DNA of 64,000 bases from Telmatospirillum sp. (GTDB lineage Bacteria; Pseudomonadota; Alphaproteobacteria; CACIAM-22H2). Shown here piece after piece: positions 28,615 through 31,503 of this stretch. The translations under genes were made by a program, and so were the position numbers. The stretch covers positions 1 through 64,000 of the forward strand of contig JADCGL010000017.1 in the NCBI GenBank assembly GCA_020248985.1. The letters run 5' to 3'. Under the pieces are notes generated by a model. It was given only the letters and a program-made list of their open reading frames with translations, was not told the DNA's origin and made no database searches. Within the stretch, counting starts at the first letter, position 1. Each line of letters opens with the position of its first letter.

Positions 28615-30330
28615 ATGATCAGGACCATGCAGGCTGCCTCGACCGGTCCAAGTTTTGTCGATCTGTTCACGCCCAAGCTTCTGACGGTGCTGCGCGAGGG
28701 CTACGATCTCGCGAAACTGCGCGCCGATGCGCTTGCGGGCCTCACCGTCGCGATCGTGGCCTTGCCGTTGTCGATGGCGATCGCGATCGCTTCGGGGGCG
28801 ACCCCGGCGCAAGGCCTCTACACCGCCATCGTCGGCGGTTTCCTCGTGTCGGCCTTCGGCGGCAGCCGCTTCCAGATCGGCGGACCGGCGGGCGCTTTCA
28901 TCGTTCTGGTCGCCGCAACCGTCGCGCTGCACGGCATGGACGGGCTCATTCTTGCGACGATCCTGTCGGGGCTGATGCTTGCGGCGATGGGGCTCTTGCG
29001 CATCGGCACCTACGTGAAATTCGTGCCCTATCCGGTCACGGTCGGCTTCACGGCCGGAATCGCCGTCATCATCTTCGCAAGCCAAATCAAGGAAATCTTC
29101 GGGCTCACGCTGTCGGCCCCCGAGCCCGGCGCGTTGCTGGCCAAGTTGCCCGTGCTGTGGCAAGCGCTGCCGAGCGTCAATGCCGCCGCCGCGTGCGTGG
29201 CGGGGGCGACGATCGCGACCATTCTGGGCTTGCGGCGTTGGCGCCCGCATTGGCCGGGCTTGTTGATCGCGGTTGCCGGCTCGGCCGTCGCGACCTGGGC
29301 TTTCGGCTTGCCGGTCGAGACGATCGGCACGCGCTTCGGCGGCATTCCGGCCGTCTTTCCGATGCCGGCATTGCCCGAGCTGAGCTGGACGAAGATCGTG
29401 GCCGTGCTGCCGAGTGCGGTGTCGTTCGCGATGCTGGGGGCGATCGAATCGCTGCTGTCGGCGGTGGTCGCCGACGGCATGACCGGGCGGCGCCACCGCT
29501 CGAACTGCGAACTGGTCGCCCAAGGCATTGCCAATGTCGGATCCGGCCTGTTCGGCGGCATTTGCGTGACGGGAACCATCGCGCGCACGGCCACGAACGT
29601 GCGCAGCGGCGCCCACGGCCCCATCGCCGGCATGCTGCATGCGCTGTTTTTGCTGCTGTTCGTGCTGCTGGCGGCGTCCGCCGCCAACCATATCCCGTTG
29701 GCCGCCCTTGCGGGCGTGCTCGCCGTCGTCGCGTGGAACATGGTCGAACGCCAGGCGGTCGCGACCTTGCTGCGCGTCTCGACCGGCGACGCGGCCGTGC
29801 TGGCAACGACGTTTTTTCTCACGATCTTCCGCGATCTCACCGAGGCGATCGTCGTCGGCTTCGCGATGGGGGCGATGCTGTTCATCCACCGCATGTCGAC
29901 GAGCGTCGCGGTCAGCGGCGAGCGCGGCCTCGGGTTCGAAGACCGCGCCGACACGCAAGGCGAGGACCGCATCCCCTATCGCGACGAATCCGCCGGCGAC
30001 CGCGACATTGCAGTCTACCGCATCAGCGGCGCGTTCTTTTTCGGAGCGGCCGCGTCGATCGGCTCGGTGCTCGACAATATCGGCGAAGCGCCCAAGGCGC
30101 TTGTCGTCGATTTTGCGGCCGTGCCGCTGCTCGATTCGACGGCGGCCCACATCATCGAAGGGCTCGCGCACAAATGCGCGCGCGACGGCGTGCGCCTGTG
30201 CCTGACGGGGACGAACCACGACATGCGCCAGACGCTGTTTGCGCTGGGCGTCAAACCGCCGCTGGCGCGCTACGAGAAGTCGGTCGAAAAAGCGGTGGCC
30301 GACTTGCGCCGGCCGGCCGAGACGATTTAG
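28615..30330 (+). CDS. SulP family anion transporter with STAS domain
   Basis: A 571-residue inner-membrane transporter. Residues from about 40 to 420 form the SulP membrane domain (GLTVAIVALPLSMAIAIASG and TGTIARTATNVRSGA are family hallmarks). A cytoplasmic STAS domain follows (DIAVYRISGAFFFGAA, LVVDFAAVPLLDSTAA). Relatives carry sulfate, bicarbonate or dicarboxylates, and the substrate cannot be read from sequence. A second possible start is ATG 28627, four codons in; neither has a strong ribosome site. Confidence 0.92.
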   Translation: MIRTMQAASTGPSFVDLFTPKLLTVLREGYDLAKLRADALAGLTVAIVALPLSMAIAIASGATPAQGLYTAIVGGFLVSAFGGSRFQIGGPAGAFIVLVAATVALHGMDGLILATILSGLMLAAMGLLRIGTYVKFVPYPVTVGFTAGIAVIIFASQIKEIFGLTLSAPEPGALLAKLPVLWQALPSVNAAAACVAGATIATILGLRRWRPHWPGLLIAVAGSAVATWAFGLPVETIGTRFGGIPAVFPMPALPELSWTKIVAVLPSAVSFAMLGAIESLLSAVVADGMTGRRHRSNCELVAQGIANVGSGLFGGICVTGTIARTATNVRSGAHGPIAGMLHALFLLLFVLLAASAANHIPLAALAGVLAVVAWNMVERQAVATLLRVSTGDAAVLATTFFLTIFRDLTEAIVVGFAMGAMLFIHRMSTSVAVSGERGLGFEDRADTQGEDRIPYRDESAGDRDIAVYRISGAFFFGAAASIGSVLDNIGEAPKALVVDFAAVPLLDSTAAHIIEGLAHKCARDGVRLCLTGTNHDMRQTLFALGVKPPLARYEKSVEKAVADLRRPAETI

Positions 30331-30334
30331 CGCG

Positions 30335-30463
30335 TTAGCGGGCGGCCGCGACCGACATCATGTCGGGGTTGGTCACAAGCAGCGAGTCGCTGGCGGAATC
30401 GTGGGCCAAAGCCAACGCCGTCACCACCGCAACCATCGCCGCCAAAGCCAAAAACGCAAACAT
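30335..30463 (-). CDS. small 42-residue secreted or membrane peptide
   Basis: A short gene of 43 codons. It begins MFAFLALAAMVAVVTALALAH, a hydrophobic stretch like a signal peptide or single membrane helix, followed by a short polar tail with DSASDS. GGAG lies at proper distance (5-6 bases) before ATG 30463. It converges on the SulP gene, its stop lying only 4 bases beyond the SulP stop. Codon third positions are GC-rich, as in real genes here. I do not recognise a family. It may be a small inner-membrane or periplasmic peptide. Confidence 0.6.
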   Translation of the reverse strand: MFAFLALAAMVAVVTALALAHDSASDSLLVTNPDMMSVAAAR

Positions 30464-30777
30464 TGGTATCTCCAAAGCCGACGGTCATGTCCGTCGCGCC
30501 AAAACACTATGCCGCGGTACTGCCGGAAGTTTTATTGCTAAGGCCACAGCCAAGCCATGCATTTTTATCATGTATCGATACATATTTCCGGCGTTTTTCA
30601 CATGTCTAAACGCCAAAATTCATGCTTTGGCCACAAAGCGGCCCGAATAAAGCCTTCGACGCCTCGTTATATGGACAGATCGACGGAAGCGTTTTTGCGA
30701 TCGCGTACGCAAGGATCCGTTGGACGGCCGCACGAGGGACACCCGGACTCCACCCTTGCTGCGGCAACTTGCGCGAA
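30464..30777. other. AT-rich intergenic region and ccmA leader
   Basis: No convincing protein gene in this stretch. It holds a 14-bp palindrome (30570-30583), an AT-rich block (30555-30675) that may contain promoters in both directions, and the sequence leading into the terminator before ccmA. A TATATG-like -10 is at 30668-30673, but no good -35 accompanies it. Confidence 0.5.
30570..30583. promoter_or_regulatory. 14-bp perfect palindrome, candidate operator
   Basis: ATGTATCGATACAT is exactly self-complementary and lies in AT-rich DNA between the small peptide gene (minus) and the ccm operon (plus). It could bind a dimeric regulator acting on either side. No known box was recognised. Confidence 0.4.
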
Positions 30778-30824
30778 GGCGGATGCGAGCCCGGATGTAC
30801 GGTTCGCATCCGCCCTTTTTTTTT
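30778..30824 (+). terminator. strong intrinsic terminator immediately upstream of ccmA
   Basis: An 11-bp perfect stem (30778-30788 with 30804-30814), extendable by three pairs including one G-U, is followed by C and nine T. The T-run ends only 16 bases before the ccmA ATG. No plus-strand protein gene precedes it, so it ends either a small RNA or a regulated leader of the ccm operon. Confidence 0.9.
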
Positions 30825-30840
30825 CGCTAAGCTCCCTTCC

Positions 30841-31503
30841 ATGACTGGCGAATCGGCAGCAGGCCTCTCGGGCCGCGAATTGGCATGCATGCGCGGCGGC
30901 AGAACCGTGTTCGCCAAGCTCGATTTCGGTTTTGCCCCCGGCGACCTCGTGGTGCTGCGCGGGCCCAATGGGGCCGGCAAATCGAGCCTGCTGCGCGTGC
31001 TGGCGGGGCTCGTGGCGCCGGCTGCCGGCACGCTCGCCTGGCACGGGGCCGACATTGCCGAAGACCCAGCCGGCCACCGCGCGCGCCTGCAATATGTCGG
31101 GCATCTCGACGCGCTCAAAGCCAACCTCACCGCGCGCGAACATCTGCGCTTCCATGCGGCCTTGCGCGACATGGGGGCGCGCGACGTGGGGGGGCGCGAC
31201 GTCGAAGGCCACCACATCGCACACGCCCTCGACATGTTCGGCCTTGCGAAGCTCGCCGACCGCCCGGCGCGCTTTTTGAGCCAAGGCCAAAAAAGGCGCG
31301 TGGCCTTGGCGCGCCTATGCGTGGCCCCCGCCGCCTTGTGGCTGCTCGACGAGCCGACCAACGGGCTCGATGCCGAAGGCGTCGCGTGCCTTGCGGCCGC
31401 CATCGCCGACAAGCGCGAGGGCGGCGGCATTGTGGTTGCGGCCACACATCTCGATTTTCCGGGCGGCCAGGCGCGCACGCTGACGCTGCGTGCGGCCGCA
31501 TGA
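30841..31503 (+). CDS. ccmA: heme exporter ATP-binding protein CcmA
   Basis: A 220-residue ABC ATPase of the CcmAB(CD) complex that releases holo-CcmE during cytochrome c maturation. Walker A is GPNGAGKS at 41-48, the signature is LSQGQKRRVALARL and Walker B is LWLLDEP. The ATG at 30841 lies 16 bases after a terminator T-run and lacks a clear Shine-Dalgarno sequence. The open frame continues upstream through the terminator, but no better start is visible. The stop overlaps ccmB (ATGA). Confidence 0.94.
   Translation: MTGESAAGLSGRELACMRGGRTVFAKLDFGFAPGDLVVLRGPNGAGKSSLLRVLAGLVAPAAGTLAWHGADIAEDPAGHRARLQYVGHLDALKANLTAREHLRFHAALRDMGARDVGGRDVEGHHIAHALDMFGLAKLADRPARFLSQGQKRRVALARLCVAPAALWLLDEPTNGLDAEGVACLAAAIADKREGGGIVVAATHLDFPGGQARTLTLRAAA

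Follow-up and report, generated by a model that had tools for sequence, protein, structure and literature searches.

Within the 64,000-nt stretch of DNA analysed here (the window), ccmA lies at 30841..31503 on the plus strand (ABC_tran, 5e-29) as the first gene of the ccm cluster and is followed by genes for CcmB, CcmC, CcmE, CcmF, a CcmG-like redoxin and CcmH. The first-pass annotation held that no plus-strand protein gene lies upstream; this was wrong, as a SulP sulfate permease with a STAS domain (PF00916, 7.8e-78) occupies 28615-30330 on the same strand, although it adjoins the RNA element described below in the closest species only. Between SulP and ccmA there is a minus-strand ORF of 42 codons (30335-30463; MFAFLALAAMVAVVTALALAHDSASDSLLVTNPDMMSVAAAR) with GGAGA upstream, which has no Pfam match, is conserved across the genus (35-100% identity) and always diverges from the RNA gene. 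We also note a perfect palindrome, ATGTATCGATACAT (30570-30583), in the interval from this small ORF to the promoter box of the RNA; it is retained in the nearest species and in part in others. An N-terminally extended CcmA starting from the ATG at 30622, where an in-frame ORF is present in this genome, was considered and rejected because indels in relatives break the frame and homology begins at 30841.

Directly in front of ccmA stands an intrinsic terminator, H3 (30778..30824, plus strand), made up of GGCGGATGCGAGCC-CGGATGTAC-GGTTCGCATCCGCC followed by a C and nine T (30816-30824), with a 14-bp stem and a 9-nt loop. Its 3' end is 16 bases from the ccmA ATG. H3 folds at -29.3 kcal/mol (z -5.1), and it is the sole site with a stem of at least 11 bp and at least seven T on either strand of 300 kb of the genome; two shuffled copies of those 300 kb contain none. 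Among the 16 genomes in which we find the element, 9 of 13 stem pairs have changed on both sides and so covary, and the loop GGAUGUAC is retained in the genus only. Stem, T-tract, fold and covarying pairs all uphold the initial description of this site as a strong terminator.

The terminator appears to be the 3' portion of a longer structured RNA. We propose a small RNA gene of ~145 nt at 30677..30824 on the plus strand (the 5' end is approximate), with a fold z-score of -3.8. A covariance model, R1, and a second model, R2, built with the loop-linker helix nested, match the locus at 30677-30823 with E-values of 1e-36 and 5e-30, respectively. Upstream of H3 the plus strand folds into two further hairpins: H1 (30681..30722), with apical loop AUCGCGUA and inner pairs that covary (97.7% of cells paired), and H2 (30727..30765), which is supported by covariation and presents an unpaired loop, CCCGGACUCC (30742..30751), identical in 16 of 16 genomes from four genera. 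The loop is our candidate for a base-pairing seed. In the alignment of all 16 copies, 89.6% of cells are paired and two-sided changes affect 15 of the 34 pairs. The covariation score reaches 0.311, compared with 0.132 after shuffling and no more than 0.074 after sliding; these figures lean upwards, as the sequences had been aligned to a previous model covering part of the structure. Most of this support comes from the terminator and the H2 stem. One-nucleotide indels between species disrupt every reading frame across the RNA. On the comparative evidence we regard the predicted structure of inner H1, H2 and H3 as shown, and the element is very likely to be a conserved RNA element. The strand UCGCGUA in the H1 loop (30701..30707) is complementary to UGCGCGA in the linker (30770-30776) in all 16 sequences, and RNAalifold picked this helix unprompted; the two may form a pseudoknot, which is without covariation support because the core of the helix is invariant in 16 of 16.

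A DNA search locates the RNA region in each of the 10 remaining genomes of the genus (Tagaea-like Rhodospirillales) and in none of the family's other genera. In all 11 genomes it is flanked by the small minus-strand ORF on one side and ccmA on the other. R1 adds five copies from three further genera (G001-G003, G005, G007; E 3e-12 to 2e-5), each directly upstream of ccmA, and R2 scores all 16 copies at an E-value of ~1e-15 or better. The covariance search of relatives that had been suggested for a leader upstream of ccmA thus reveals conservation in 11 genus genomes and three further genera. Beyond the 16 copies, R2 gives no convincing match in 385 genomes of the class; its matches in other families of the class have E-values above 0.003, lie away from ccmA and look like chance. 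Within the family, there is no RNA match and no recognisable ccmA in G004 and G008 (both ~75% complete), and no RNA match in G006 and g7, where another gene abuts ccmA. Genus g6 has no covariance-model match, yet it keeps a terminator and the box TGCCACAATC, and the element at its ccmA is probably a diverged copy of the RNA. We note that at the two g6 loci (L139 and L141) the terminator is a different strong one (GGGCCGGCGC..GCGCCGGCCC) and that, together with the box, it falls within ~60 nt before ccmA.

Signals that could drive the RNA gene lie just upstream of it on the plus strand. A conserved box, TCATGCTTTGGCCACAAAG (30620..30638; TCAC-N2-4-TTTnGCCAC), is present in the 11 genus genomes, with variants in other genera and families, and is likely an activator site or the -35 region of the RNA gene. 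It is followed by a genus-level candidate for the core promoter, GCCCGAATAAAGCC-N10-CGTTATAT (30641..30672), of the form CGAAT-N16-CGTT with spacing invariant in 11 of 11. The same order, a TCAY...TTY-n-GCCAY box, then GCCCGAATA, then CGTT, is seen in all 11 genomes. In the other genera the first box is kept (GCCACGAT) but CGTT is not seen, which is why we do not tie CGAAT-N16-CGTT to any sigma factor. A standard sigma-70 scan returned no promoter.

We have also obtained evidence suggesting that ccmA is served by a promoter of its own. According to the first-pass annotation, the 16 bases between terminator and start codon leave no room for a promoter; this is doubtful, as TAAGCT (30828..30833, plus strand), which ends 7 nt before the ATG, would suit as the -10 of a leaderless promoter. 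A TAnnnT sequence occurs 6-8 nt before the ccmA ATG in 11 of 11 genus genomes: in the seven where ccmA comes right after the T-tract it ends 7 nt before the ATG and the intervening letters vary, and in the other four, which have a longer spacer, it reads TAGATT and ends at a distance of 6-8 nt. In genome G000, TAnnnT ends 7 nt before the predicted ATG in 6 of 213 genes, as against ~0.9 for other spacings, and every gene with TAnnnT at a spacing of 6-8 nt lacks a Shine-Dalgarno (SD) sequence; in G019 the peak at spacing 7 is weak. Leaderless mRNAs are documented in Magnetospirillum (5%; PMC9549626) and Bradyrhizobium (320 transcription start sites; PMC4842269). It is likely, then, that ccmA has its own leaderless promoter with TAAGCT as its -10.

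Three other accounts of the element deserve consideration. The first-pass annotation offered control of ccm transcription through this site as one possibility: transcription starting upstream would meet a conditional terminator, an attenuator or riboswitch leader, that lets it into ccmA upon a heme, redox or other signal. The terminator is indeed just 16 nt from the ATG in the window and always beside ccmA, and in 5 of 11 species (G000, G018, G019, G011, G016) a segment of the terminator 5' arm can pair with the H1 region while the 3' arm is still untranscribed. In the remaining species, however, this pairing is missing or takes another form, so that no antiterminator is common to all; the distance from terminator to start codon ranges from 16 nt to more than 100 nt in relatives and reaches ~350-400 nt in another family (L241); and ccmA carries a conserved -10 of its own. 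No Rfam riboswitch is found either, and no Rfam family matches the RNA at gathering score or credibly below it, which agrees with the earlier observation that no known riboswitch motif could be recognised. We consider such a leader unlikely, and nothing points to the responsiveness to heme that had been suggested. Attenuators of biosynthetic operons resemble this locus in placing a strong terminator just 5' of the first gene, but differ from it in that the window locus is without a conserved antiterminator and ccmA has its own promoter signal.

That the RNA is made separately and works mainly in cis on ccmA, through transcriptional interference or through access to the overlapping ccmA promoter, strikes us as improbable to a similar degree. 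Linkage to ccmA persists across families and the ccmA promoter abuts the T-tract in Tagaea, both of which would fit such a role; against this, the spacing between RNA and ccmA is not fixed, and the loop is conserved at the level of sequence, something that an effect exerted purely in cis would not require. Far less plausible still is that the site simply terminates transcription of SulP or of another gene upstream and is conserved for a different reason. Although SulP on the plus strand ends ~450 nt before the terminator, it is not adjacent in most genus genomes and the element remains; in addition, the conserved minus-strand ORF intervenes and the 145 nt 5' of the terminator are structurally conserved.

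The reading that we favour, and hold to be probably correct, is that of an autonomous small RNA gene of ~145 nt whose 3' end is the terminator, with ccmA expressed separately as a leaderless mRNA and the RNA acting in trans. The other possibility raised in the first-pass annotation, a small RNA of 100-150 bases ending here, is supported, given a length of ~145 nt, a conserved structure and upstream box, a terminator of its own and a presence in four genera. The transcription start, independence from ccmA, action in trans and targets are what we infer, with differing degrees of assurance. The RNA would be transcribed from its own promoter within 30620-30676, and its transcription is, we think, quite likely independent of that of ccmA. 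It would then fold into three hairpins, with the loop-linker pseudoknot as a possible addition, and transcription would stop at 30824. The ccmA gene would be transcribed apart from it, as a leaderless mRNA, with the -10 TAAGCT just behind the T-tract. The likeliest role would be pairing in trans of the exposed loop CCCGGACUCC with the ribosome-binding sites of mRNAs, and in relatives the pairing loops would also include CCUCUCCCC and C-rich loops; by analogy with other small RNAs, we give action by loop pairing in trans an even chance. A perfect 11-nt complement of the loop, TGGAGTCCGGG, is found nowhere in this genome outside the RNA itself, and an 8-nt complement at an SD sequence occurs once in 300 kb, about the level expected by chance, so the seed role of the loop is weakly supported. 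The loop (30742-30751) includes GACTC, a GANTC (CcrM methylation) site, which may help account for the rarity of its complement in the genome. The single 8-nt match falls on the SD sequence GAGGAGTCCG of an ABC-transporter binding protein (L175 ~14844; contig C9 ~174,845), whose mRNA is a possible target of the RNA.

The RNA has counterparts among known alphaproteobacterial small RNAs without appearing to belong to any of these families. The rhizobial and Rhodobacter anti-SD (aSD) hairpin RNAs (SmelA075/SmelA099, RS0680a) are likewise short and intergenic, with C-rich-loop hairpins on variable stems, and pairing of the C-rich loops of SmelA075/A099 with ribosome-binding sites has been proposed (PMC3927594). 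Their defining loop is CCUCCUCCC, present on two or more hairpins, however, and here there are no such loops and no Rfam match; the Tagaea loop is CCCGGACUCC, at a single locus at ccmA. GsrN of Caulobacter has an exposed C-rich loop that is its most conserved part and pairs with mRNA, specifically with the katG leader (PMC5869019), but it lies near sigT-phyR under an EcfG promoter (GGAAC-N16/17-CGTT). The window RNA is linked to ccmA, not sigT-phyR, and has another upstream box, with CGAAT-N16-CGTT in the genus only. The trans-acting alpha-R8/SisA-D RNAs (PMC12559287) resemble it in that their unpaired core is conserved and that they have a terminator, but their core, UUUCCUCCCU, is absent from the window RNA, and their promoters have no common motif whereas the ccmA-linked RNAs share a box. 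Two further candidates were rejected: 6S RNA (RF00013), which has no match here and is encoded elsewhere in the genome on contig C40, and a CsrA sponge of the CsrB/RsmY type, as PF02599 is absent from this genome (98.9% complete) despite the presence of GGAUGUAC in the H3 loop. No small RNA at ccmA is described in Rfam or in the freely accessible literature searched. The small RNA gene is apparently real, conserved and undescribed, of a known kind, with a tie to ccmA that is unusual and probably old.

To look beyond the family we collected regions upstream of ccmA from 51 other families (set 1) and from 60 further genomes fetched after set 1 (the held-out set), 111 in total. Several set 1 loci carry the same box, a CCTCCCC stretch, C-rich-loop hairpins and a terminator before ccmA; these loci have no Rfam match. 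Because the RNAs do not align, we abandoned a covariance model for the class and relied on strand bias and on the held-out set instead. C-rich-loop hairpins on the ccmA strand versus the opposite strand number 25 versus 2 in set 1, 38 versus 6 in the held-out set, where the hairpin rule was left unchanged, and 63 versus 8 in all 111. For the box combined with a C-loop the counts are 14/60 versus 1/60 in the held-out set, which is the fair test because the box regex was written after viewing set 1 but is not fully independent since many of its genomes come from set 1 families, and 24 versus 1 in all 111; none of 28 recA upstream regions used as a control has the combination. At the remaining class loci beyond these 24 of 111, the box and C-loop are missing or diverged. 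A looser box regex, TT-N0-2-GCCAY, is not significant by itself (15/51 versus a shuffled mean of 9.6 and maximum of 15). The class boxes align as AAATCACAATTTCGCCACATTC-N12-GnCACAATC, that is, as CACAWT units ~11 and 22 bp apart. We note direct repeats of CACAWT upstream of ccmA at L239, L309, L342, L344, L230 and L241; such repeats are suggestive of tandem response-regulator sites.

Relatives of Tagaea connect its RNA to the class-level RNAs: in these relatives (L037-L039) CTCTCCCC precedes a GAGG-type H2 stem with a C-rich loop, much as CCTCCCC precedes a GAGGC stem in L230 and L241. The class-level RNAs vary in hairpin number, as do SmelA075/SmelA099 and RS0680a. The Tagaea RNA is likely homologous to the class-level ccmA RNAs, on the basis of synteny, box and architecture, the basis being limited to these three because the RNA bodies do not align. 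Much of the class thus probably possesses a C-rich RNA locus that evolves fast and is linked to ccmA, and the window carries a derived version of it. Comparable C-rich elements resembling small RNAs are found in front of ccmA in a substantial minority of the Alphaproteobacteria sampled, so that the locus has more the look of a regulatory RNA locus of long standing than of a switch that turns ccmA on and off. A bolder proposal, which we regard as speculative and rather doubtful, is that a class-wide small RNA has been anchored to the ccm operon since deep time, driven from the shared CACAWT box, and keeps the translation of numerous mRNAs, which may be respiratory, in step with heme and cytochrome c assembly.

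The locus shows that a leaderless promoter, if ccmA has one as seems likely, can be tucked against a terminator. If the small RNA gene is real, it would add a layer of RNA beside cytochrome c biogenesis, and ccmA would provide a syntenic anchor by which a fast-evolving small RNA may be traced through much of a bacterial class. It would also pose a testable question, namely what a small RNA kept beside ccmA regulates.
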